Made by a program: the position numbers and the translations under genes. From NCBI GenBank assembly GCA_014879535.1, contig JACSRX010000002.1, positions 1-32,360 of the forward strand: a DNA stretch of 32,360 bases. The letters run 5' to 3'. Source of the stretch: Chthoniobacterales bacterium. GTDB taxonomy: Bacteria > Verrucomicrobiota > Verrucomicrobiia > Chthoniobacterales > JACTMZ01. Positions 946 through 26,370 of this stretch are shown here, piece after piece (positions within the stretch are counted from its first letter, which is position 1; each line of letters opens with the position of its first letter). The notes beneath the pieces were generated by a model, which searched no databases, was not told where the DNA came from, and worked only from the letters and a program-made list of their open reading frames with translations.

Positions 946-2412
946 ATGGCATTTGAAATCCAGTCGCCCAACACGGGCGACACACTGAAAACCCTTTCAC
1001 CCGCCGCACAGGCGAAACTGTGGAAGCGTGGCGTCGATATCTTCGAGCAAAGCTCGGACTACTTCGCCGACATGGAAGGCGGCGCCGACGCCGTCATCCA
1101 CACCGAGACCGATACCAGCAAGGGCATCGGCCAAACCATCACCTTCCGCACCATGGCGGGCTTCTACGACGAGCCGCACATGGGCGAGGAGCTCTTCGAG
1201 GAAGGCGACGACTTCCAGGAACTCCTCATCGGAAGCCACGACCTCACCGTGGATTTCCTGCGGCACTCGGTGCGCCTCACCCAGCGCATGGAGGAGTTCA
1301 TGGGCATGCGCGGGGAGATCAAGGGCGAGCTGCCCGAGCAGCTCGGCCGCTGGCTCGGCCGCACCAAGTCGGAACGCATGTTCATGATGTTCCTGCACAA
1401 GCTCAACCCGGAGAACCTCATCTACGCCAACGGCGCGAGCCAGGACACCCTGCTCTCCACCGACACGCTCGACTGGGACAACATCGTCGCCGGCGGCACG
1501 CAGCTCGGCCGCATGGGCGGCGAGAAAGCCAACGTCGGCAAGAACCAGCCGCTCTTCCGCAATGTCGTGGCGGCCACCACCGACGCCCTCTTCTCGCTGA
1601 AGATGGACAACAACTACAAGCAGCTCCTGCGCGAGGCCGGCGACCGCGGCGGCTCCAACGTCATGTTCAAGGGTGGCTTCACCGATGTGGACGGCCACAT
1701 CATCAAGCCCTACAACCCGATCGACCATGACGGGCGCGGCGCCATCGGCAGCCCGCTCAACGCCAAGGCGTGGCTGGGAGAGGCCATCACGGCCGGCACG
1801 GGCACCTTCGCCATCAAGGGCGGGGGCAGCGCGGCCGCCGCAGCGAAGACGAAGATCAAATACTTCAAGCACTTCGCCGGCTACGCCTTCCCGTTCCTGC
1901 CCGGCGACGTGCTCAGCCCGGGGAGCACGACCCGTTACCTGCTCATCATCAACCCGCCCAACGCGCCGACCGATCCCAACAAGGTGGGCATGTATGCCTA
2001 CACCACGGGCAACAACGGCAACACCATCACCATCACCCAGCGCTTGGGATCGGCCGCCTCCGGCGACCGCGTCACCACGCTCGGCGCGGTGTCGTGGAAC
2101 ACCGGCGTGTGGTCGGGCAGGCACACGGAGGTGCACCCCATCGGGGCGACCATCCTGCCGTGCAACGCCAAGGGCGTGGTCTTCGGCGACACGCTCATGC
2201 TGGTCAAGCAGGCCGCCTACCGCGGCTACGGCCAGTTCCGCAACCAGCGCACCGAGGACATGCACAACGGCGGGTTCGTCAAGGACCTGTTCGTGACCAG
2301 CGTCTTCGGCCAGGCGCCGCGCAAGAACGTCGATGGGCGCTGCCCGGGCGTGCTGCGCATCCGCCATGCGCTGCAATACGCGGGGCTGCCGCTGCCGGCC
2401 GTCACGGCATAA
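946..2412 (+). CDS. Major capsid protein, N4-gp56/DUF4043 type
   Basis: This 488-residue protein would form the phage head shell. Residues 1 to about 160 show features of the N4-gp56/DUF4043 capsid families: a segment on tight control of the fold (GQTITFRTMAGFYDEP), the charged E-loop-like stretch with MGEELFEEGDD, and DFLRHSVRLTQRMEEFMG. The C-terminal part (FGDTLMLVKQAAYRGYGQ) also fits. It is somewhat longer than many members. The stretch around residues 300-420 looks like a separate beta-rich insertion and could be a surface domain, but that is inference. The start is ATG with GGAG ten bases upstream. Scaffold-like and small virion genes flank it, as expected in a head module. Family membership is judged by eye. 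Confidence 0.85.
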   Translation: MAFEIQSPNTGDTLKTLSPAAQAKLWKRGVDIFEQSSDYFADMEGGADAVIHTETDTSKGIGQTITFRTMAGFYDEPHMGEELFEEGDDFQELLIGSHDLTVDFLRHSVRLTQRMEEFMGMRGEIKGELPEQLGRWLGRTKSERMFMMFLHKLNPENLIYANGASQDTLLSTDTLDWDNIVAGGTQLGRMGGEKANVGKNQPLFRNVVAATTDALFSLKMDNNYKQLLREAGDRGGSNVMFKGGFTDVDGHIIKPYNPIDHDGRGAIGSPLNAKAWLGEAITAGTGTFAIKGGGSAAAAAKTKIKYFKHFAGYAFPFLPGDVLSPGSTTRYLLIINPPNAPTDPNKVGMYAYTTGNNGNTITITQRLGSAASGDRVTTLGAVSWNTGVWSGRHTEVHPIGATILPCNAKGVVFGDTLMLVKQAAYRGYGQFRNQRTEDMHNGGFVKDLFVTSVFGQAPRKNVDGRCPGVLRIRHALQYAGLPLPAVTA

Positions 2413-2981: not shown

Positions 2982-3392
2982 ATGAGCGCACTCAGCTCCC
3001 ACCTCGAAAACGCGATTGCAAACCTCATCCTCGGCAGCGCTGCCTACAGCGTGCCGGGAACGCTGCACTTCGCGCTTTTCACCACCACACCCAACGAAGC
3101 CGGCACCGGCGGCACCGAAGTTTCCACCTCGGGAACTGCCTACGCCCGCGTTGCGGTGACCAACAACACCACCAACTTCCCGACCACCAGCAACGGGACC
3201 AAGAGCAACGGCACCGCCTTTACCTTCCCCACCGCCACGGCATCGTGGGGCACGGTGGTGGGCTGGGGCATTTACGATGCCTCGAGCTCGGGCAACCTGC
3301 TCTTCTTCGGCAACCTCACCACCTCCCGCAGCATCGCCTCGGGCGACACGGCGCGGTTTGCTACCGGGGACATCTCGATCACGTTCGACTAA
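2982..3392 (+). CDS. Gp80-like phage virion protein
   Basis: This 136-residue protein has the layout of the Gp80/tail-fibre-like family found in many phages. After an N-terminal helix comes a strand block (GTLHFALFTTTPNEAGTGG), then a short TAYARVAVT strand, then a WGTVVGWGIYDASSSGNLLF segment, and last a paired strand close to the C-terminus (ARFATGDISITFD). These proteins usually occur among virion structural genes. The exact role is not settled, and proposals include minor tail or decoration protein. It sits between the capsid block and the large repeat protein. The start is ATG, with an AAGGAA about 13 bases upstream. Confidence 0.75.
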   Translation: MSALSSHLENAIANLILGSAAYSVPGTLHFALFTTTPNEAGTGGTEVSTSGTAYARVAVTNNTTNFPTTSNGTKSNGTAFTFPTATASWGTVVGWGIYDASSSGNLLFFGNLTTSRSIASGDTARFATGDISITFD

Positions 3393-3460: not shown

Positions 3461-6400
3461 ATGCTCCTTACCGGCGACATTTCAGGCACGATCGTCTATC
3501 TCGGCACAACGCCCGGGTGGGTCCAGATCGGCATGTCGCTGGAGCACGAGGCGTGGCCGGGCGGCCGCACGACCATCGTCGATGCCGACGGTGATCAAAT
3601 CTACACCGCCGACGAGGCCAGCGGCAGTTTCCCCGGGGCGGAGATGTTCGCTTACTGGGGGCTGGAGGCAACAGTCGATGCCACCGCCGAGGCTGCCGCC
3701 GAAGCCCGCAAAGACATCGCTTACCGTGCCTTGAACCTCACCGCCGGGAGCTTTTCGGCCGAGGTGGTCGGGGGGACCGAGGGCCTTGCCTTGGGCATGC
3801 TGGTAGGCATGCGCGAATACCCAGACACGCTCTATCTCAAGGATCCGACCGAGATCACCGGCATTACCGAAACCCACATCACACTTTCCAAGACCGCGAA
3901 TTACACGATTGCGGGGGCACAGGTCGTCTTTGCCCGGCGCGTGAAAACCCAATCCCCGCCAGTCTTCATCGCCAAGGCCACGGTGGATTGGGCTTGGCTG
4001 TTCACCGACAAGGATGTGCGCACGCGCACAGCCATCGCCACGGCGGGACAAAACTATCTGGCCGTCATCCGCGGCGGCACTGCCGGTATTTCACCCGGTG
4101 ACCACGTCCTGCGCAACGAGGGGAACTTTTCCGGAAACGGACTGCAGGTTTCGGCGGTTTACGACCCGGTCGTCTATCTTTACGGATCAAGCGACTTCTC
4201 CGGAACGCGGGAATTCCTGTTTGCCCGTCCGTTCTATGCGACCGCCAGCGCTTCGGCCACCGCCACGGCCAACCTGCAGACGGGCAATCCCTACATTCTC
4301 GCCAATTACCACAACGGCGAACTCGAACTGGTGACCGGCAATCCCGCCGACTACCGCTACGGCATGGAGGTGGAGGGCCCAGGCTACGATGCGCCCTCGA
4401 GGGTGCTTTCGGTCAACCTCCTGAACCGGAAAATCGCCACATGGCCTCAACCGACCGGATCGGGCCAGGGGGGCTATCAATTCTGGTGGCCGATTGCCGC
4501 GCAGGCCGAGACCACGATTGTTGCCTCCGCGGCCCTGAGCGTTTCGAGGACCGCCGAACTGGCGACCAACGTCACGGCCTTGGGCACGGCCACGGCCAAT
4601 CTCACGCACCAATACAAGGGCGTCATGGCCCAAGGCGCGTCCTCGGCACAGGCGATCATCACGCTCACCGCGCGCGTGCAGGAACGCGTCTTGCACCAGA
4701 TCACCACGGGCGACCAATGGATCACCGTGGCTGGTGGCGTGGCGGGAATCGTCCCCGGCAAGCACAAGGTTCAGCCCATCGCCCACGCCACCTACGGCAG
4801 CACGCCTTGGGGGTATCCTGCCGTGAGCGGGTATCTGGATGCGGTGGATATCGTGGCTGTGGATGCCGTTGGCGGCCGTGTCCGCGTGGCCAAGGCTCCC
4901 ATCGTCGCGGACAACAATTTCCCATATCCCTTCACCGGCCACTTTTTCTGTGTGATCCATGTCCCGGTCGGCGCGACCGGGACCGGCGATGCAAGACAGA
5001 TCTCCCGCCTCACGCGCAACAATGTCTATCGCCAATGGGTGATGGTCGAAAAAGGCCACCCGAGGGTGGATCTCCTGCCTGCGGCCCGGCAAATCCAAGG
5101 CTGGCAGTCGGGCTATGCCGTGGCGGAGGGCGAGCTTGTCGAGCAGGACATCCTCAATGGCACGCAGACGCGCAGCGCGGTTTTCTCCGGCACCGTCATC
5201 CCGCAGGACAGCTACATCTTGGATGACAGCTTCAATGTCGTTGGGTTCTACCTGCCTGTCTCTTGGCCCTACAACCGGCCGATTCCGGGCCGATACACCA
5301 CCGATCTGCTCATCTACTCGCCCCTGAAGCTTGCGGCCGCATCGACCGCCGGCGCCACAGCCACCCAAGCCACCGTGATCCGCGGATTGCGCGCGGTGGC
5401 CACCGCCGCCACCTACAGTTCCGCCGAAGTGGCACTTGACCGCGCCGTGTATCTGCGGGCCAATGCCCAGGCAGCCGCCACGGCCGCCGCCATGCTCAAC
5501 TTGCCGGAGCGGCAATGGACGCTGGCCTTCAACGGGATCACCGCCAAGGTGATCACCGGCGAGATTGCCAATGCGGTGCCGGGTATGCGCGTGCATGTGG
5601 TTGCGCCCTCCGGCTCCGGCCCCATGACGATGGCCGAGCATGTGCTCGAGATTTTCTCGGTCAACACAGCCACGCAGACATTGACCTTCGCCGCGTCCAG
5701 CGGCCTCACTCTCACCGCGGCGGCTTGGGTGTATTGGCCTCTGGGGGGAATCGCCACAGCCCCGGCCGTCGCGGTGCCCCCCACGCTCTCGCGCGACATC
5801 CGGCTCAAGCCAGCGGCCGCCCATGCCGCGTGCACCGCCTCGGCCACGTTCGATTCCATCGTCTCCATGCCTCTGAAAACCGCGGCAGCGGCCGGCGCGA
5901 CGGGATCCGCCGTCCTGAGCTTCGACGTGCTCGCCCTGCGCATGGCGGCGACATGCCAGAGCCTGGGCAGCGCCCGCATCACGCGCTGGATCGACGTGAA
6001 GGCCCAAGGCCTGTGCTACGCCACGGCCAGCGCCTACCTCGAATACACCGACGAGGGGCTCACGGTGAAAGATGCCATTGATGATGTGCTCAACACCCTG
6101 GGCATTACCCAGCCGCAGCTTGCGCAACAGTTCATGAAGCGCCGGGCGCTCCATGACCTCAATGCCGCCGCCCAGATGGTTTGGACGGCTTGCGTGGACC
6201 TCGGCTTCATCGGCAAGACCACGCACGAGATTTCCTATTCCCAAGGGCAGGCGAGCGCCACCCTCTCGCGCACCGTGCAGACCGTGCTGGGCAATGTGCG
6301 GGTGGGCGACGGGCCCCCGCTCATGAAGCTCGCCACCCGCTCGCAGTGGCAGAACTTCGCCGTGAGCTTCGGCATCTCATCCGGCCCGCCGCTGGCGTGG

Positions 6401-6763
6401 TTTGCCGACTCCCACGGGCAGCCCAAGAGCGACAGCATCGCCGTGAAACTCCACCTTGCCCCGGCCCCGCCCGAGGCGGTCACGGTGAAGCTCGACGTGA
6501 TCGAGGACTGCCCGCGCTACCTGTGGCAGGATTACATCGAGCGCACGGCCCTGCAGATCCCGCACCAATACGCCGAGAGCTGCCTGTTGCCCATCTGCCG
6601 TTACCTCGCCTCGGGATCCGGGCTTTTCAACAAGCCCGACCTCAAGGCCCAGATCGACGCTGATTACAAGACGGCCCTGGGCATCCTGCGCATCACCGAT
6701 CCCGAACAGGAAGAGCAGGACCGCACCAACGCCAAGCCGAAGGAGGCGGCCGCTGCACGATGA
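3461..6763 (+). CDS. Large repeat-built virion protein with adaptor-like C-terminus
   Basis: This is an 1100-residue protein of unknown name. Residues about 90-765 contain roughly six beta-rich modules (near 90-162, 198-262, 269-347, 417-500, 522-622 and 684-765). Several carry a Gly-Gly-x-x-Gly-Ile-x-Pro-Gly type turn (GGTAGISPGDH, GGVAGIVPGKH, ITGEIANAVPGM). Ala/Thr-rich segments such as TASASATATANLQTG separate the modules. Residues about 890-1080 match the neighbouring 282-residue protein in order: a helix bundle, beta strands, LHLAPAPPEAVTVKLDV, and a C-terminal helix with LLP. The protein may be a neck, tail or fibre component anchored by an adaptor-like domain. The gene follows two strong hairpins and has no clear ribosome binding site. 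Its stop overlaps the next start as ATGA. Confidence 0.75.
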   Translation: MLLTGDISGTIVYLGTTPGWVQIGMSLEHEAWPGGRTTIVDADGDQIYTADEASGSFPGAEMFAYWGLEATVDATAEAAAEARKDIAYRALNLTAGSFSAEVVGGTEGLALGMLVGMREYPDTLYLKDPTEITGITETHITLSKTANYTIAGAQVVFARRVKTQSPPVFIAKATVDWAWLFTDKDVRTRTAIATAGQNYLAVIRGGTAGISPGDHVLRNEGNFSGNGLQVSAVYDPVVYLYGSSDFSGTREFLFARPFYATASASATATANLQTGNPYILANYHNGELELVTGNPADYRYGMEVEGPGYDAPSRVLSVNLLNRKIATWPQPTGSGQGGYQFWWPIAAQAETTIVASAALSVSRTAELATNVTALGTATANLTHQYKGVMAQGASSAQAIITLTARVQERVLHQITTGDQWITVAGGVAGIVPGKHKVQPIAHATYGSTPWGYPAVSGYLDAVDIVAVDAVGGRVRVAKAPIVADNNFPYPFTGHFFCVIHVPVGATGTGDARQISRLTRNNVYRQWVMVEKGHPRVDLLPAARQIQGWQSGYAVAEGELVEQDILNGTQTRSAVFSGTVIPQDSYILDDSFNVVGFYLPVSWPYNRPIPGRYTTDLLIYSPLKLAAASTAGATATQATVIRGLRAVATAATYSSAEVALDRAVYLRANAQAAATAAAMLNLPERQWTLAFNGITAKVITGEIANAVPGMRVHVVAPSGSGPMTMAEHVLEIFSVNTATQTLTFAASSGLTLTAAAWVYWPLGGIATAPAVAVPPTLSRDIRLKPAAAHAACTASATFDSIVSMPLKTAAAAGATGSAVLSFDVLALRMAATCQSLGSARITRWIDVKAQGLCYATASAYLEYTDEGLTVKDAIDDVLNTLGITQPQLAQQFMKRRALHDLNAAAQMVWTACVDLGFIGKTTHEISYSQGQASATLSRTVQTVLGNVRVGDGPPLMKLATRSQWQNFAVSFGISSGPPLAWFADSHGQPKSDSIAVKLHLAPAPPEAVTVKLDVIEDCPRYLWQDYIERTALQIPHQYAESCLLPICRYLASGSGLFNKPDLKAQIDADYKTALGILRITDPEQEEQDRTNAKPKEAAAAR

Positions 6764-7608
6764 ACACGGCATGGCTGGCCCAGCAGGTCCTGCCCCGGTG
6801 GGGCCTGGGCGATGTCGCCGCCCTCGGGGCGAGCGATGCTCTCATCCTGCTTCGCGCCATCAACGGCGGCCTGCAGGAAGCGGCGACTTTGCTGCCCTCG
6901 GTCTATTCGCAAGTGCCGGTGACGGTCGCCCTGCCCGCGCCCATGGCCGTTTCGGTGACGGTCACCCAAGGCAGTGCCGACATTTCCGAGCAGGCCGGTT
7001 TCGCCGGCCGCGGCATCACCATCGCGGGCGATGCGCAATTCAACCGCCTCGCGGAAGACACCAAGCTGCGATTCCCCTACAACGGGCCCACCGGCACCCA
7101 TGCCGCCGTGATCTACAGCGATGCATGGCGCATGGAATCGCCCGTGGCGCGCATGGTGGCGCCGCCCACGATCAGCAGTCCCTTTCCCCTGCCGCCGCTC
7201 ATGCCCGCCCCGCCGGATGCCATGGCCTCCTTGGAGGTCGGCACGCCGGTCCACTACTGGATTGAGCCGGCCGGGGCCACCCAAGGCGCCGAGCCACCAT
7301 TCTGGATGCGCATCGCCCCCGCACCCGCCACGCCCGTGCGCCTCAGCTTCACGGCCGACGTGCGCCCGCCGCGCCTCACGCTCCAATCGTTGGTGATGGC
7401 CGGGCAGATCGCCTTCCACAGCCACTTCATCGAGAAAGGGCTCCTGCCCTTGATCGAGGAGGAAATGGCCGCGCACACCCTCTGGGCCGACCCCAAGACC
7501 AAGGCCGACGCCGCCGAACGCGCCAAGGCCGCGCGCGAATTCCTGCGCAACCAACCCGCCAGCCTCGACACCAACTTCAACCGCGTGTTCACGCCGCCCG
7601 GATACTGA
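6760..7608 (+). CDS. Adaptor-like phage structural protein
   Basis: This 282-residue protein begins with a helical region (residues 1-45, DALILLRAINGGLQEAATLL). It continues with strands of the form VPVTVALPAPMAVSVTVTQG and a GPTGTHAAVIYSDAW segment. A later strand block has RIAPAPATPVRLSFTADV (about 184-201), and the C-terminus is helical. The N-terminal pattern resembles head-tail connector/adaptor proteins in phages with N4-gp56-type capsids. The assignment is by pattern only. The C-terminal third is similar to the end of the upstream 1100-residue protein, so the two are probably tandem paralogues. The start overlaps the upstream stop (ATGA), and only one base separates its own stop from the next start. 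Confidence 0.75.
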   Translation: MNTAWLAQQVLPRWGLGDVAALGASDALILLRAINGGLQEAATLLPSVYSQVPVTVALPAPMAVSVTVTQGSADISEQAGFAGRGITIAGDAQFNRLAEDTKLRFPYNGPTGTHAAVIYSDAWRMESPVARMVAPPTISSPFPLPPLMPAPPDAMASLEVGTPVHYWIEPAGATQGAEPPFWMRIAPAPATPVRLSFTADVRPPRLTLQSLVMAGQIAFHSHFIEKGLLPLIEEEMAAHTLWADPKTKADAAERAKAAREFLRNQPASLDTNFNRVFTPPGY

Positions 7609-7609
7609 C

Positions 7610-8395
7610 ATGGAAACCGTGATCCACATCGACCAGCTCAAGGATTTCGTCTCCCGCGTGGTGCGCGAGGTCAATGCCGGGCTCTTGGTCAACAGCATGG
7701 AGGGCATCGTTGTCAACAACCCCAAGGAAATCACCTTCGAACTGACGGTGGTTACGGACCTTACCCAGCAGATACCCCGGCAGATGACCGAGTCCATCGA
7801 GCAGACCACCGAACACGGCGGATCAACCCAGACCTCCCGCCAGACATCCACCGAGATCGGCAAGGAGACCAGCGAGGAAGCTGGGCGCCGGGACGGTGTG
7901 CAGACCTCCCTGCAGGAAGAAACCGGCCGCGACGACGAGGATGCCCAGAGCACCGAGCAGAGCCGCCAAAGCTCCAACCAAGAGGAGACGGGCGACAGCA
8001 CCGGCACGGCCCGCGAGAACAGCGAGACCGCCGAGGAAAGCCGCCAGGACGAAACCGGGACATCCCGTGAAACCACGACAGAGGAAGGCATCCAAGAAAG
8101 CACGTCCGATGACCGTGGGCAGGAAATTGGAACAACCGTTTCCGGTGACATTGAGGATGGCTCCGGCAGCGAATCGGGAACCACGACGGACACCTCAAAT
8201 GAGGAATCTTCCACGGACGAAGATTCAGAGAGCAAAAACAAGGAGGAGTCCGAGGAGGAAAACGAATCAGAAGAAGAGCAATCCGGCACTGAAAAAAACC
8301 AGCAGGAAACCCGCGACGAGAGTTCCGCCGAATCGAACCGTGAAAGCCAAGAAGCCGATACCAGCGAATCCACCAGCGACTACGAGGAGATTTAG
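7610..8395 (+). CDS. Acidic low-complexity protein with short ordered N-terminus
   Basis: Residues 1-55 look folded: a helix (IDQLKDFVSRVVREVNAG) followed by a strand pair ending in EITFELTVVTDL. Residues 56-261 are almost entirely Glu, Asp, Ser, Thr, Gln, Arg and Gly, and are expected to be disordered. A hand count gives about 71 Asp+Glu against about 20 Lys+Arg. Loose repeats of the type SRQ-x-S...EETG recur. The next gene has the mirror design, with a basic disordered body and an ordered C-terminus. The start lies one base after the upstream stop, and the stop is two bases before the next start, so the frame is well supported. I know of no family for it. A virion or assembly role is inferred from position. 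Confidence 0.75.
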   Translation: METVIHIDQLKDFVSRVVREVNAGLLVNSMEGIVVNNPKEITFELTVVTDLTQQIPRQMTESIEQTTEHGGSTQTSRQTSTEIGKETSEEAGRRDGVQTSLQEETGRDDEDAQSTEQSRQSSNQEETGDSTGTARENSETAEESRQDETGTSRETTTEEGIQESTSDDRGQEIGTTVSGDIEDGSGSESGTTTDTSNEESSTDEDSESKNKEESEEENESEEEQSGTEKNQQETRDESSAESNRESQEADTSESTSDYEEI

Positions 8396-8397
8396 CC

Positions 8398-9108
8398 ATG
8401 CCTGATTGGGTCTTAAAAAAACAGCGCACCGAACGTGAGGCGTCCAGCTCTGACGCGCAGACCTCCAAGAGCGAGTCAACCCGGACAAGCACCACGGAGG
8501 GGGAGCGCGAGTCGAAGCGCAAGGTTTCCGGGAAGGGTTCGAAAACATCCGCAGGCGAGGCCACCTCGAAACGGAAATCAAAGGGCGAAGGGAAAAAGAA
8601 TTCCTTGAGAATTCAGCATTCCGAAAGCCACTCCCATCGCAACCGCCAATCCACGACCCAACAGGAGAGTAACCGCACCGGTCACAAGACCGACAAAGGC
8701 ACCAGCCGTTCGAACCGCGCCACCAAGGGGAGCCGCAACGGCACGACCAAGGGCACCAAGAAGGTCACGGGCCGCGCCGAGAAGACATCCTCCGAGCAGA
8801 CGGCCCGCAAGAGCCGCTCACAATCCTCGACCAAGGGGACCACGGCGCGCACCAGCCAGCGCACCAGCACGCGCAACACGCAGAGCCAAGGCGCCAACAC
8901 CGAAACCTCCCGCAGCGACCGCAATGGCCAATCCGAGCGCCGTGGCAACACCCGCCGGGTGGAGGAGGGGGGCAACAACAGCCTGCGCGCCTCGACCTCC
9001 ACACAACGTGTGGTGGATCTCGCCAACATCGGAGGCCGCATCACCTTTTCCGTCATCGTCCGCAGCGAAGTCCCCGTTCCAACCACCACCAACCCGCAAA
9101 CACCATGA
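8398..9108 (+). CDS. Basic low-complexity protein with short ordered C-terminus
   Basis: This is a 236-residue protein. Residues 1 to about 205 are dominated by Ser, Thr, Arg, Lys, Gln, Gly and Asn, and are expected to be disordered. A hand count gives about 50 Lys+Arg against about 22 Asp+Glu. The last 30 residues look ordered (RVVDLANIGGRITFSVIV). The core RITFSVIV resembles EITFELTV at the end of the ordered N-terminus of the acidic partner upstream. The charge is opposite to that of the partner, so pairing of the two chains is a natural guess. Binding of the basic chain to packaged DNA is an alternative. A run of seven A lies at codons 6-8. The stop overlaps the next start as ATGA. Confidence 0.75.
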   Translation: MPDWVLKKQRTEREASSSDAQTSKSESTRTSTTEGERESKRKVSGKGSKTSAGEATSKRKSKGEGKKNSLRIQHSESHSHRNRQSTTQQESNRTGHKTDKGTSRSNRATKGSRNGTTKGTKKVTGRAEKTSSEQTARKSRSQSSTKGTTARTSQRTSTRNTQSQGANTETSRSDRNGQSERRGNTRRVEEGGNNSLRASTSTQRVVDLANIGGRITFSVIVRSEVPVPTTTNPQTP

Positions 9109-9725: not shown

Positions 9726-11264
9726 ATGGGCATTCAATTTTCCCCGCCCCCGGCGGATGATTCGAAATACAGCATCATGGCCGGAAGTTTCCTTGCGACC
9801 CCCGGCGGAAAGTATGCCGCCGATACCAGCGCAACCGAGACGGTGACGGTGTTGCCGACCTTCGAGGCCGGCGGCCTCAAGTTCACCGGCAAGACATGGG
9901 ACCACAGCGGGGAGTTTTACATCGCGCCCTTTGACGACGAACCGCCCACCAACCTCGACGGCAATACCCTCTCGATCAACATCAACTCGCCGGGGACGCT
10001 TGCCGAGATCATCGCCTTGTTCGGTCCCGAACTGCCCTACACGGTGGAATTGGCCGAGGGATCGTCGCCCTCCGACCTTTTCCCGACCGATTTGGATGAC
10101 TCCTTTGTTTTTGAAGGGGGCTCCGAAACCGAGACATTCATTCCCTTCATGGTGACAATTCCCGAGTTTCTGCAGCCGGGTGACATCATCCTCTTCAAGG
10201 ACGCCATGGGAACATGGGACGACAACCCCATCGTCATTCTTTGCGGCGGTCACCTCATCGAGGGCCAAAACACAGATTTTGTGAACAATGCAGCTGGGAC
10301 ATCCTTTGATCTACTTTTCGTGGGGGGGGCGAAAGGATTCCGTGTATTCACTGCCGGAACCAAGCCACTCAACCTCACCCCGCCCGAGGTCAGCGGAACC
10401 TACCTGCGTTCCGCCACCGCCGGCACGTGGACCGGGAGCCCCACAGCCTTTGCCTACCAGTGGCAGCGCAGCGATGACGGGGAAGGAGGCTGGAGCAACA
10501 TCGAAGGAGCCACCAGCAGCACTTACCTGCCGACGACCGAAGACGACGAAGGAAAATATCTCCGGGTCGCTGTGGTAGCCACCAATGCCAACGGCCCAAG
10601 CGCGGCGGCTTATTCACAGGCATCCGGGCCGGTTGTGATTCCCGAGTTTCCTGCGGATGGACTCATTGCGTTTTGGCGACTGGATGATCTTACCGACGCC
10701 AGCGGCGCCGGCAACACCCTCACCAACACCGGGTCGGTCACGTTCGATACGGGCCATCTCGGCGACGCCGCTGTTTTTAGCACCGGGAAATACCTCGGCG
10801 CGCCGGTGGGCATAGGCGGCGATGTGCAGGAGTTTTCAATTTCTGCGTGGTTCAAGACTTCACAAACGGGGAATACCAACCGCTTCATTGTTGGAAACGA
10901 AGCCGAGGACACTGACTACCTGATGATCATGGAGCATGGTGGGGGTGTTTACGCCAACCTGCGCGGTGCGTCACAGATTGGTGGCGGAGGCGGAACCTAC
11001 AACGACAACGAGTGGCACCATGCGGTGCTGACTTACGACGGTTCGACGTTGAAACTGTTCATTGACGGCACACTTTTCGACTCAGCGGCGAATGTCGGCG
11101 TGATCGCCCCGACGCCGCTTTACATCGGCGCAAACCAGACGGGTTCTCACGGGTTCGGTGGCAGCGGCACAGCGCACATCGACGCGGTGGGGCTGTGGGA
11201 CCGCGCGCTCATCAACGAGGAAATTGCCCTCCTGTATGCGGAAGGGGAAGGAAAGGAGCCCTGA
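9726..11264 (+). CDS. Tail fibre-like protein with Ig-like and LamG domains
   Basis: This is a 512-residue protein, read from the ATG at 9726 (two bases after the upstream stop). Residues 1 to about 205 form a virion-attachment-like region with no recognised family. Residues about 215-300 look like an Ig-like domain: FAYQWQRSDDGEGGWSNIEG followed by the YLRVAVVATNANG strand. Residues about 310-505 form a LamG/concanavalin-A-like jellyroll, with LIAFWRLDD at the start, FSISAWFKTS, WHHAVLTYDGSTLKLFIDG, and IDAVGLWDRALINEEI at the end. Such jellyrolls bind glycans, so host surface recognition is the likely role. The real host ligand cannot be read from the sequence. Confidence 0.8.
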   Translation: MGIQFSPPPADDSKYSIMAGSFLATPGGKYAADTSATETVTVLPTFEAGGLKFTGKTWDHSGEFYIAPFDDEPPTNLDGNTLSININSPGTLAEIIALFGPELPYTVELAEGSSPSDLFPTDLDDSFVFEGGSETETFIPFMVTIPEFLQPGDIILFKDAMGTWDDNPIVILCGGHLIEGQNTDFVNNAAGTSFDLLFVGGAKGFRVFTAGTKPLNLTPPEVSGTYLRSATAGTWTGSPTAFAYQWQRSDDGEGGWSNIEGATSSTYLPTTEDDEGKYLRVAVVATNANGPSAAAYSQASGPVVIPEFPADGLIAFWRLDDLTDASGAGNTLTNTGSVTFDTGHLGDAAVFSTGKYLGAPVGIGGDVQEFSISAWFKTSQTGNTNRFIVGNEAEDTDYLMIMEHGGGVYANLRGASQIGGGGGTYNDNEWHHAVLTYDGSTLKLFIDGTLFDSAANVGVIAPTPLYIGANQTGSHGFGGSGTAHIDAVGLWDRALINEEIALLYAEGEGKEP

Positions 11265-12258: not shown

Positions 12259-12593
12259 ACAAGCAAGCTGTGGGAACACTCGTGCGCGGGCTCCTCGTGG
12301 CCCTCGGGGGGTTCTTGGTGGGGCGTGGTATCCTCACCGAGCACGAAACCAACCTGCTCTTGCAGGCGGCCGCGGACATCGCGCCGGCTTTGCTCATCAT
12401 CGGCCCGGTCCTATGGGATCTCATCCGGCGCGTGCGCGAAGGCCGCTACAAGGAGGCGCTTCAGGAAATTCTGGGAGTGCTTCCGGACCGGAACATCGGC
12501 CCCAAGACGGTGGGGGCGGCAGAAGACCTCCGAATCGAAGTTAAACGTCTCTCCGGCACTTCCGGTGTTTCCGCCGATCCACCCAGCACATGA
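12255..12593 (+). CDS. Holin-like protein
   Basis: This is a 112-residue protein. Two hydrophobic segments are visible: residues about 8-26 (TLVRGLLVALGGFLVGRG) and about 38-56 (AADIAPALLIIGPVLWDLI). A charged helix and a Gly/Ser/Pro tail follow. The order of short start, hairpin of two transmembrane helices and charged C-terminus, plus position between a spanin-like pair and the amidase, fits a small holin that opens the inner membrane at a set time. The pattern resembles the Pam3-gp28-type holin group, which is judged by eye. Translation is coupled to the lipoprotein gene through ATGA. Confidence 0.7.
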   Translation: MNKQAVGTLVRGLLVALGGFLVGRGILTEHETNLLLQAAADIAPALLIIGPVLWDLIRRVREGRYKEALQEILGVLPDRNIGPKTVGAAEDLRIEVKRLSGTSGVSADPPST

Positions 12594-12612
12594 GCCAGCG
12601 CAAGACACGGCC

Positions 12613-12882
12613 ATGCCGCAACAAACCCTCGAAGCGCCGCGTGCGGGAGCTTCGCCGCCGCAAGGAGGCGAGGCGCCACCACGGGTGGTGACCAGTTTCG
12701 AGGAGTTTGCCCATGCCGTTCCCGAGGCCGAACGCGACACGGCCCGGGCGGCATGGAATGCGGCGACAATCTTGGCCATCGCCGCGGTGAACGAAGAGGC
12801 GCACATGCATCCCATCGGGCTGCGCACACTTTTCCGCCGCGTGGTGCGGCGAATTACCCAAGCAATCATCACATCCCCATGA
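12613..12882 (+). CDS. Hypothetical protein between holin and endolysin
   Basis: This is an 89-residue protein. Residues 1 to about 25 are Pro/Gly/Ala-rich. The remainder is helical (EFAHAVPEAERDTARAAWN, later RTLFRRVVRRITQAIITSP with an amphipathic basic end). No transmembrane segment is clear. No family is recognised. The stop overlaps the start of the amidase gene as ATGA, which supports the frame and suggests co-expression with the lysis genes. Confidence 0.55.
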   Translation: MPQQTLEAPRAGASPPQGGEAPPRVVTSFEEFAHAVPEAERDTARAAWNAATILAIAAVNEEAHMHPIGLRTLFRRVVRRITQAIITSP

Positions 12883-13640
12883 AGACACTCAAACACGGCG
12901 ACCGTGGCAGCGCGGTCCAAGACTACCAGACGCAACTGCAGTGCGCTGGATACAACATCGGCGATGCCGGGGCGGATGGATGGTTCTGGCATGCCACGCT
13001 GGCCGCCACGCTCAAATTCCAGGCCGATCACAAGCTTCTGACCGATGGTGTGGTCGGCCCCCGCACGCTGGCGGCCCTCGCTTCCTCCCTCCCGCCTGTC
13101 GCCCCCCCTGTGGCCACCGGGGATTTTGCCGAAATCCATCTCCTCACGCCTAACCGAGGGGTCAAGGGCAACCGCGATGCCGTGGTGAAATGCGACTATC
13201 TCGTGCTGCACCACACCGACGGCTGGAGCCGATACGGCGGGGAGAAGGATGGCGACGTCGCCCATTGCATGAACCCGGCAACTGCCGTCTCCTACCACAC
13301 CCTTGTGGCATGGAACGGCACGCGCACCGTGCTCGTGCCCGACGGCCGGCGCGCATGGCATGCGGGCGCCTCAAGCTGGGCGGGGCGGAACTCCTGCAAC
13401 GAATTCACCATGGGGCTTGCCTTCGGAGGCTCGACCATCACCGGGATGATGCGCCCGGGGGGCTCGAAACTCCTCACGCCGCCGGAACTGGCCAGCGCCT
13501 TGGAATGGATCCGCCCCCGCGCCCGGAAATACGGTTGGAGGGCGGAACACATCATCACCCATGCGATGATCGCCCCGGGCCGCAAGGCCGATACCAGCGC
13601 GGCCGTGTGTGATCAGGTGCGCCGTGTCCTTGTGGGCTGA
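12879..13640 (+). CDS. Endolysin: peptidoglycan-binding domain plus amidase
   Basis: This is a 253-residue endolysin, an N-acetylmuramoyl-L-alanine amidase that would cut the peptidoglycan stem peptide at lysis. Residues 1 to about 70 are a PG_binding_1 domain (LKHGDRGSAVQDYQTQLQ, DGVVGPRTLAAL). A Pro linker follows, and then an Amidase_2/AmpD-type domain from about residue 85. Candidate zinc ligands are the His of YLVLHHTDG, the His of ITHAMIAPGRKAD and the Asp of that segment, with the Lys spaced as in AmpD. Where AmpD has its catalytic Glu (IGIE), this protein has Ala (CNEFTMGLAFGG). T7 lysozyme also lacks the Glu there. There is no signal peptide, so the enzyme needs the holin. The 3' end overlaps the convergent repressor gene by 28 bases. 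Confidence 0.9.
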   Translation: MKTLKHGDRGSAVQDYQTQLQCAGYNIGDAGADGWFWHATLAATLKFQADHKLLTDGVVGPRTLAALASSLPPVAPPVATGDFAEIHLLTPNRGVKGNRDAVVKCDYLVLHHTDGWSRYGGEKDGDVAHCMNPATAVSYHTLVAWNGTRTVLVPDGRRAWHAGASSWAGRNSCNEFTMGLAFGGSTITGMMRPGGSKLLTPPELASALEWIRPRARKYGWRAEHIITHAMIAPGRKADTSAAVCDQVRRVLVG

Positions 13641-14056
13641 GGCTCCCCACGCAGCGCCCACGCCTGGGCGATCAACCGCACCATGCGGTCATCGGCAAGG
13701 ATGGCCGGCATGTCCTTGCGCAGCCCGTCGGGCAGGCCTTGGAGGGTGGGGGAGAGCCCGAGCAGGTAATCCTGCCACTTGCGCGAAAGCTCCCGGCGCC
13801 CCTCGAGGACGCCTTCGCCCACACCGAAGGTGTCGATGCTGTAAAGCCGCTGGAACTCGCGGAGCTTTTCCCCCCTTATCCCCAACGCCGAAAGAATCTT
13901 AAGAAGCGACGCATAACGGATCGCAATCCCATGCTCCGCCTTCCAGAGGATCGAATGCGAGATTTTCGCCTTGCGACAGGCTTCGCGCATCGAGAGGCCC
14001 GCCTCACGCCGCGCCGCCGCCAGCGCCGCGCCGATTTGCTTTTTCGCCACACCCAT
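13613..14056 (-). CDS. XRE-family repressor-like regulator
   Basis: This is a 147-residue protein, read from the ATG at 14056. Residues about 8-62 form a helix-turn-helix of the XRE/Cro-CI type (IGAALAAARREAGLSMREAC, then ISHSILWKAEHG). The C-terminal part is helical and does not look like a LexA/CI S24 protease domain. If it is the lysogeny repressor, induction would not be by the usual RecA-stimulated self-cleavage. The upstream ribbon-helix-helix gene on the same strand ends four bases before its start, so the two form one operon. The 3' end overlaps the amidase gene on the other strand by 28 bases. Confidence 0.8.
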   Translation of the reverse strand: MGVAKKQIGAALAAARREAGLSMREACRKAKISHSILWKAEHGIAIRYASLLKILSALGIRGEKLREFQRLYSIDTFGVGEGVLEGRRELSRKWQDYLLGLSPTLQGLPDGLRKDMPAILADDRMVRLIAQAWALRGEPQPTRTRRT

Positions 14057-19074: not shown

Positions 19075-20128
19075 GAATACCGCAATCGAGTGGTGTGACG
19101 CTTCGCTGTCACCGTGGTGGGGATGCACGAAGGTGTCGCCGGCGTGCGCGCATTGCTATGCGGAGGCGATCGACGCGCGGTTCGCGGGTGGTGGCCACTG
19201 GGGGAAGGGGGCACCGCGGCTGCCGAAGCCGAATTTCGAGCGGGATGCGATGCGGCTGGACCGGAAGGCGGCGAAGCTTGGCCGAAAGCTCACGGTGTTC
19301 CCGAGCATGTGCGATCCGTTCGACGAGGAGGTTTCCATTGAGATGTTTGCCGATTTCCTCAGTGTGATCCATCGGACGAAAAACCTCGTCTGGCTCTTGC
19401 TGACCAAGCGGCCGGAGAGTTGGCGCGCCAGGGTTTGTGCCGCGGGCGACTGGATGCTCACGCACGGCAAGATCGCAGAATACTCGGCGTTCATCAATCC
19501 GTGGGTCCACGTCGTTCCGACCCCGCCCGCGAACATCTGGATCGGCGCGACGGTAGAGGACCAGCAGCGGGCCGAGGAGCGCATCCCGCACCTGTTGAGC
19601 ATTCCGGCCAAGGTGCGGTTCCTGTCCTGCGAGCCGCTGCTTGAGGCGGTGGACTTACTTCTTTATGGGGAGCACTCATCTTGGACATGCCCGGACTGTG
19701 GATCGAAGAACGTCAGGGCGGACAATCACGATCCCGACGAGGGCAAATGGTGGCAGTGCCATGATTGCAATGCGTCAGAATACGGAGAGGCGGAATGGAA
19801 GTCCGACATCCATTGGGTCATCTGCGGCGGTGAGAGCGGCCCGAATGCCCGACCGATGCACCCGGATTGGGCGCGGTCGTTGCGGGACCAGTGCGCGGCC
19901 GCAGGGGTGCCCTACTTTTTCAAGCAGTGGGGGGAGTGGATGCCGCTCGACCAAGTTATTTACCGTCTTGGCGAGGAGTGGTCCGAAACAGGATCGGCGA
20001 TGATCGACCGCGGCATCTTTGTCCATGACTGGCCGGACAACACCAAAAGTGGACGCTTTGGCAAAAAGATCGCCGGTCGCCTCCTCGACGGCAGGGAGCA
20101 CAACGCATTTCCGGAAATTTACCCATGA
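19067..20128 (+). CDS. DUF5131 (phage Gp37/Gp68) protein with inserted zinc ribbon
   Basis: This is a 353-residue protein. The family's three-cysteine motif is seen near the N-terminus as Cys20, Cys27 and Cys30 (WWGCTKVSPACAHCYAE). It is followed by MCDPFDEEV, LLLTKRPESW, IWIGATVEDQQRAEERI and the C-terminal VICGGESGPNARPMH and VPYFFKQWGEW. The family has a radical-SAM-like cysteine arrangement, and its reaction is not known to me. An insertion at about residues 203-245 contains two CxxC pairs (Cys208/211 and Cys231/234) and looks like a zinc ribbon not present in the shorter family members. It overlaps the upstream gene by 8 bases and the next start as ATGA. Confidence 0.85.
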   Translation: MAENTAIEWCDASLSPWWGCTKVSPACAHCYAEAIDARFAGGGHWGKGAPRLPKPNFERDAMRLDRKAAKLGRKLTVFPSMCDPFDEEVSIEMFADFLSVIHRTKNLVWLLLTKRPESWRARVCAAGDWMLTHGKIAEYSAFINPWVHVVPTPPANIWIGATVEDQQRAEERIPHLLSIPAKVRFLSCEPLLEAVDLLLYGEHSSWTCPDCGSKNVRADNHDPDEGKWWQCHDCNASEYGEAEWKSDIHWVICGGESGPNARPMHPDWARSLRDQCAAAGVPYFFKQWGEWMPLDQVIYRLGEEWSETGSAMIDRGIFVHDWPDNTKSGRFGKKIAGRLLDGREHNAFPEIYP

Positions 20129-25166: not shown

Positions 25167-25396
25167 AAACTTCGCCTCCGCGCATCATGAAATCGAACGA
25201 GGCAAGGGCCTACGTCGGGGGACGCCTCAATCTCGAGCGGCTGCAGGCCGCGGGGTGGGTGACGCCCCTGGGCGGCAAACAGCGCGCCATGGATTACGAC
25301 CGCAACCAGATCGATGCGGCGCTCGACCGGGTCCGGTTGACCGGGTGGCCTCAGATGGAAGCAATGTCCGAATCGGAGGGCGACAAATGCGCGTAG
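25163..25396 (+). CDS. Excisionase-like winged-helix protein
   Basis: This is a 77-residue protein. The segment MKSNEARAYVGGRLNLERL, followed by AAGWVTPLGGKQRAMDYD and NQIDAALDR, resembles the small winged helix of Xis/AlpA excisionases, which bend DNA at the attachment site to direct excision. The place, directly beside the convergent integrase gene, fits. The 3' end overlaps the integrase gene by 46 bases, so transcription of one strand would interfere with the other. Confidence 0.7.
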   Translation: MKTSPPRIMKSNEARAYVGGRLNLERLQAAGWVTPLGGKQRAMDYDRNQIDAALDRVRLTGWPQMEAMSESEGDKCA

Positions 25397-26370
25397 TGCT
25401 CGACCGTCACGCGGTAATCATCGCCAAGCCAGAGGGAAACCTTAGTGAGGCTCACCCCGGCTTGCACGAGCAGGGAGGCGAACGTCCGGCGCATGACATG
25501 GGCGGAGAAGTTTTCAATCTTCAGATCCGCGCAGAGGGCGGCCATGGGCACGCGGAAGTCGTAGCGGTAGTCGCTCTTCCCATGCTTCACCTTCGGGCAG
25601 ACGAGGAAATCAAGGGGGCCGAGCCCCTTGCACGCCTTCCGCAAATGGCGCAAAAGGACGGGGTGCAGAGGGATGATCCGCTCCGACCTGTCTTTGATCC
25701 GGAAGGGACGTTCCCCAGGCCGGAGACGCGGAGGATTGACCGCCGGCCGCACGCGCAGGCACCCCGCCTTGAAGTCCACCCAGTCGCGCCTGGCCTCGGC
25801 AATCTCCAGGCGCCGAAGGCCGGCGTAGAACCCGAGCAGAAGGCAGGTAAGAAGCGGTTCCGAGGCGGCTTTGATCATCTTGTCGCGCACGGTGGCCGCG
25901 ACAAAGTCCGCCCCGCGCGTGCGCGCCGACTTCGTGCGCGCAATGCCGTCCCACGGGTTGAGCACGCAATAGCCACGGGCGGCAAATTGCTTCCACACGG
26001 ACGACGCGGTGCGAAGGTAGCTCTGCGCGGATGCCTCGCTGGTCTCCTTCTGCCATGCACGGTAGATGGCTGTCGCCTTTTCCGGGGAAACGGCCGACAC
26101 GTCGAGATTGCCGATCCGGGTGATGATGTTCTTGATCACCCACTGGCAACCGCGGCGGGTCTTCTGGTTCTGCCAGTGATCGGCCACGGCCGCGATCGCC
26201 GCTTTGAGGCTGCCGCGCTGGAGGGCGCTTCCCTGCCGGATCTCGACAATGCGGGATATTGCCTCAGCTTGGGCCGTGGTATGCAGATTGTGCCACGTCC
26301 GGACCCCGTCAATTTGCTGGCTGAACCACAAGGCGCCGCCTCGCCGGACCGTCAGACCCCGAATCTTCAC
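25351..26370 (-). CDS. int: Tyrosine-family phage integrase
   Basis: This is a 339-residue integrase that would recombine the phage with the tRNA-Arg site. Catalytic residues visible in order are Arg (GLRRLEIAEA), Lys (RIKDRSERIIPL), His-x-x-Arg (HVMRRTFASLL) and Tyr (VEHYAHL). At the second His position, the usual LGH reads LGD (WLGDDYRVTV). An N-terminal arm-binding and a core-binding domain precede the catalytic part. The start is GTG at 26370, with an in-frame stop just upstream. Gene direction, from the tRNA end inward, is as expected for a tRNA-targeted prophage. Its 3' end overlaps the excisionase-like gene by 46 bases. Confidence 0.92.
   Translation of the reverse strand: MKIRGLTVRRGGALWFSQQIDGVRTWHNLHTTAQAEAISRIVEIRQGSALQRGSLKAAIAAVADHWQNQKTRRGCQWVIKNIITRIGNLDVSAVSPEKATAIYRAWQKETSEASAQSYLRTASSVWKQFAARGYCVLNPWDGIARTKSARTRGADFVAATVRDKMIKAASEPLLTCLLLGFYAGLRRLEIAEARRDWVDFKAGCLRVRPAVNPPRLRPGERPFRIKDRSERIIPLHPVLLRHLRKACKGLGPLDFLVCPKVKHGKSDYRYDFRVPMAALCADLKIENFSAHVMRRTFASLLVQAGVSLTKVSLWLGDDYRVTVEHYAHLSPSDSDIASI

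Follow-up and report, generated by a model that had tools for sequence, protein, structure and literature searches.

Length-matched acidic and basic low-complexity proteins encoded side by side in a prophage may form a two-chain shaft of a short-tailed phage virion

The window analysed here, that is the whole 32,360-nucleotide stretch of DNA, is the 5' end of contig JACSRX010000002.1 of a Chthoniobacterales bacterium (GCA_014879535.1). It contains a prophage in which capsid, tail and lysis genes are followed by DNA metabolism genes, an integrase and then chromosomal genes such as trpA. The features on which the analysis draws are:

946-2412, forward strand: major capsid protein (PHROG 334, E 6e-9; 42-66% identity to capsid proteins of relatives)
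2982-3392: homologue of the GP4 virion-associated fibre protein (PF23140, Gp80, E 1e-38; PDB 8jou, E 3e-11)
3461-6763, forward strand: adaptor1-like gene of 1100 aa, in which a long repetitive N-terminal part precedes adaptor1 (the last ~240 aa)
6760-7608, forward strand: adaptor2, the second tail adaptor, 282 aa, homologous in relatives and paralogous to adaptor1
7610-8395, forward strand: protein A, 261 aa, with 71 Asp+Glu and 20 Lys+Arg
8398-9108, forward strand: protein B, 236 aa, with 22 Asp+Glu and 50 Lys+Arg
9726-11264, forward strand: candidate receptor-binding or fibre protein downstream of the pair (Pfam Laminin_G_3, laminin-G-type, E 2e-22)
25351-26331: integrase, near tRNA-Arg

The capsid protein has remote similarity to solved phage capsids. 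The adaptor1 part of the 1100-aa protein was recognised against the adaptor1 genes of relatives, which are 234-260 aa long. In most relatives adaptor2 is the gene immediately 5' of the A-B pair; it matched no solved structure, and its gene order and size suggest the name adaptor. The tandem tail adaptors are also paralogous in L006, L010, L020, L028 and others, where the adaptor2 profile matches adaptor1.

One base precedes A and two bases separate A from B. These gaps, both open reading frames and their compositions had been reported from the DNA alone, and our recomputation agrees with them. Protein A consists of an N-terminal domain (residues ~1-55, a helix and a strand), an acidic low-complexity shaft (~61-253) and a C-terminal aromatic and acidic tail, SDYEEI. 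Protein B begins with the motif MPDWVLKKQR, continues with a basic low-complexity shaft (~13-201) and ends in a beta-strand region, ANIGGRITFSVIVRSEVPVP, whose strand is kept in all homologues. Both shafts are almost without hydrophobic residues. Codon-position GC agrees with the frames, the third position being the highest in each (GC3 0.74 in A and 0.78 in B). The signal is weak across ~8020-8560, and the resulting doubt about the frame is removed by homologous pairs that are arranged alike at 29 further loci. A helical period of 11 or 22 residues in the window's A was not significant.

Relatives were gathered via the capsid protein, since searching viral contigs directly with the A of the window gave no match, its conserved stretches being too short. 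With A's N-terminal region tblastn returned chance matches only, and searches with the A, adaptor2 and capsid of a relative gave no matches. Open reading frames were selected by minimum length, polarity and adjacency, and no length ratio was imposed. The pair is present in 29 related loci, giving 30 pairs with the window, always in the order A then B. In the first distant relative, L006 (capsid ~59% identical), an acidic and a basic protein are again encoded as a pair of mirrored architecture, which is located upstream of the capsid gene and on the opposite strand. In most other relatives the pair lies directly 3' of adaptor2, and in L017, L018, L048 and L057 it lies ahead of the adaptors. Three genomic positions are represented (3' of adaptor2, 5' of adaptor1, and the opposite strand), and the pair moves between them as one unit. 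Searches with profiles of the N-terminal domain of A and the C-terminal region of B yielded no confirmed orphan A or B in these loci. The sequence-only reading had proposed a working pair within a virion module, with an ordered N-terminus in A mirrored by an ordered C-terminus in B. The mirrored architecture recurs in relatives, the pair is located among prophage capsid and tail genes, and each real A is adjoined by B, except in L011, where the contig end falls inside B. Weak matches to the A domain in G692, G610 and G558 were unrelated genes and not orphans.

Four related phages (L010, L016, L025 and L028) have no detectable pair, in a comparison whose second search also missed the known L006 pair and which divergent pairs could escape. 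On this result the pair does not seem essential to such virions. The distant capsid relatives examined had no detectable A domain. Two of these (L065 and L067) encode, at the adaptor or close to it, a protein of ~620 aa whose position and length suggest a possible nozzle. No sequence relative of it was found in the pair-bearing records searched, and a replacement of the nozzle by the pair is unsupported, since none was found in pair-less records either.

The opposite charge of the two proteins had been taken as their defining principle, whereby oppositely charged, disordered A and B could condense into a complex coacervate, act as a glue or neutralise virion DNA. The window shafts (net charge -45 in A and +26 in B) and the low AlphaFold2 (AF2) confidence in the shafts agree with this, and so does the A shaft, which is net-negative in 22 of 22 lineages. 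The B shaft, however, is net-positive in only 16 of the 22 and neutral or negative in the other six, and the net charges do not balance, not even in the window, which is the most strongly charged among the pairs listed. Charge as the defining principle is thus not supported; opposite charge is a common ornament and not an invariant of the pair. Moreover, a condensate would require neither the 1:1 relation of lengths nor the matched repeat units and the period-2 alternation described below, and we regard this explanation as improbable.

The shafts had also been described as disordered. They are of low complexity but not featureless: identical residues recur at even over odd spacings in the window (z 4.1 in A and 6.2 in B). 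Combined over the shafts, this alternation reaches a Stouffer z of 10.9 for A and 17.5 for B, but z exceeds 2 in just 10 of 23 A shafts and 10 of 23 B shafts. Extreme cases are L057 and L018, with Ser or Asn at almost every second position. Other low-complexity protein regions of the same phages gave z values of -1.6 to 2.0. Outside the pair, the repetitive N-terminal extension of the 1100-aa window protein also alternates (z 5.4), and the L009 gene at 12558-14033 has an N-terminal extension too. The alternating Ser, Thr and Asn residues of the window are mostly encoded by different codons, which indicates that the pattern is maintained in the protein. Extended beta strands are expected to show a period of two.

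The lengths of A and B are tightly coupled. Over the 30 pairs, in which A ranges from 107 to 319 aa, A exceeds B by 30.7 +/- 5.0 aa (r 0.995), and over 16 sequence clusters B length equals 0.999 times A length minus 29.9 (r 0.997). Seven pairs that were added after this rule had been set conform to it, with differences of 22-32 residues. Control comparisons gave 0.15 for A against capsid length and a raw r of 0.055 for A against adaptor2 length. The repeats match as well, with tandem units in A and B, respectively, of 18 and 18 aa in L006, 18 and 18 in L008, 21 and 21 in L022, and 33 and 32 in L030. Both genes are adjacent and repetitive, and the correlation could in principle arise from common descent or from slippage in neighbouring repetitive DNA. 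Independent contrasts on the capsid tree nevertheless retain r 0.997 with a slope of 0.985 (r 0.992 without the three largest contrasts), and close relatives shift both genes by similar amounts (A/B: L030 versus L035 +57/+63, L030 versus L031 +67/+63, L018 versus L048 -52/-56, L048 versus L057 -9/-8). In addition, the repeat sequences of A and B differ and the alternation lies mostly in different codons. We therefore consider such an origin very improbable.

Parity of length, agreement of the repeat units and ordered ends are the conserved features of the pair, and they point to chains lying side by side and not to a condensate. The length relation alone is no proof of contact. A and B might instead span the same virion distance without touching along their shafts, like two tape-measure or tether chains set by a third dimension, and the conserved anchor-like segments at both ends of each chain would suit such independent spacers. 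Such spacers would not, however, be expected to have identical repeat periods in one phage or to show local complementarity of charge, and the lengths of capsid and adaptor2, the two other genes compared, do not correlate. This makes independent spacers an unlikely explanation, and we prefer chains in contact.

For chains in contact, the direction in which they run has to be considered. Smoothed charges are complementary in most lineages if the chains are antiparallel, with the C-terminus of A at the N-terminus of B, and mostly not if they are parallel; at residue level the signal is small, the antiparallel register showing a modest rise close to zero offset. The positions of the near-perfect repeats of L006 and L022 also match under this register. 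The conserved ends of both proteins fit it too: A terminates in motifs such as DYEEI, YYEEPPL, DYNYEERG and TYGEV, and the motifs that open B include MPDWVLKKQR, MADYRLYQRR and MGDFLIKK. In a parallel arrangement, the N-terminal domain of A and the N-terminal motif of B would share one end, and the C-terminal motif of A and the C-terminal strands of B the other. The coupling of lengths fits this equally, the repeat positions of L008 and L030 do not discriminate, and in a few lineages (L050, L030 and L032) charge complementarity is better in parallel. Given the charge profiles of most lineages and the repeats of L006 and L022, we think that parallel chains have a small chance of being correct. 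AF2 was applied to in-frame read-through fusions of A and B from L042 and L023, in which the short read-through linker biases the model toward a hairpin. It was confident only for A's helix and the following strand and, less so, for B's C-terminal strands, and gave the shafts a pLDDT below 50. The result is compatible with a joint A/B base. A profile of the A domain had no convincing match to a solved chain, and fold searches with the low-confidence fusion model against solved or viral structures had no match at E<=0.001.

We propose, with a probability of roughly 0.6, that A and B are obligate chains of one virion element of a short-tailed phage, with side-by-side, beta-like and probably antiparallel shafts and with its base on the tail adaptor. 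From end to end the low-complexity shafts would lie next to each other as extended, beta-like chains, and this packing would hold both genes to the same shaft length and to repeat units that match. With the chains probably antiparallel, the N-terminal helix-strand domain of A would form the base together with the C-terminal strands of B, and at the tip the C-terminal Tyr/Glu tail of A would meet the N-terminal aromatic and Lys/Arg motif of B. The arrangement would resemble one long hairpin whose turn has become the boundary between two genes. Gene order makes the tail adaptor the most likely seat of the base, and the shaft could serve as a tail stalk or spacer adjoining the receptor-binding fibre. 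The computation establishes that A and B occur and are transferred together, that their lengths and repeats match, that their residues alternate and in which gene context they lie. We infer the physical contact from the covariation of the two proteins; the beta structure, the antiparallel register, the location in the virion, the attachment to the adaptor and the stalk-like role are inferred as well. Going further, the pair may act as a split-gene molecular ruler: the two chains would fold together, each residue facing its partner, into a long polar beta shaft (or into a beta-stranded tube, if copies form a ring on the adaptor), and matched repeats that have to expand and contract together in the two genes would set its length. 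We hold this extension tentatively, as possible rather than probable.

Known repetitive shafts of phage fibres, such as triple beta-spirals and beta-helical shafts, are homo-oligomers of one gene and have hydrophobic positions. A and B resemble them in that repetitive polar shafts with period-2 alternation lie between ordered ends and are encoded in a tail gene cluster with adjacent fibre genes. They differ in being encoded by two genes, in their near lack of hydrophobic residues and in their equal shaft lengths. A length rule coded by repeat number recalls the tape measure protein, which is one long helical protein of long-tailed phages, whereas A and B are two polar proteins of phages with short-tail adaptors. 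We rejected a tape measure identity, since the shafts are nearly without hydrophobic residues and a GP4-type fibre homologue and tandem adaptors are typical of short tails. The fibre homologue in the window (PDB 8jou) links the prophage to the short GP4-type tail; A and B differ from that system in that neither matches a PHROG or Pfam family, and the A domain profile matches no solved chain convincingly. The searches run also gave no match among 50,697 phage records, and no PDB or cultured-phage relative was found. A literature search for a precedent found none, in line with the earlier remark that such a phage pair is not known to be described. We know of no pair, in phages or elsewhere, of two separate low-complexity proteins that keep equal length and repeat period across a threefold size range. 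The pair turns what appeared to be unreadable disorder into a testable structural rule, offers a natural experiment on how repeat numbers co-evolve between two genes and hints at a two-chain polar shaft of a new kind.

A glycosylated, mucin-like stalk was considered and is mentioned only in passing, since glycosyl- or sulfotransferase genes were seen only near the pair in some relatives and not in the window. Glycosyltransferase, sulfotransferase or methyltransferase domains occur near the pair or the fibre genes at 4375-5556 in L006, 17477-18277 in L009, 16828-18807 in L013 and 16215-17258 in L015, and such transferases could modify Ser/Thr-rich shafts. Elsewhere in the window, 19295-20128 encodes a DUF5131 protein, an internal part of which weakly matches the restriction alleviation protein Lar. 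Lastly, a putative fibre gene of L009 (15837-17480) encodes BspA-type leucine-rich repeats (Pfam LRR_5, E 2e-55).
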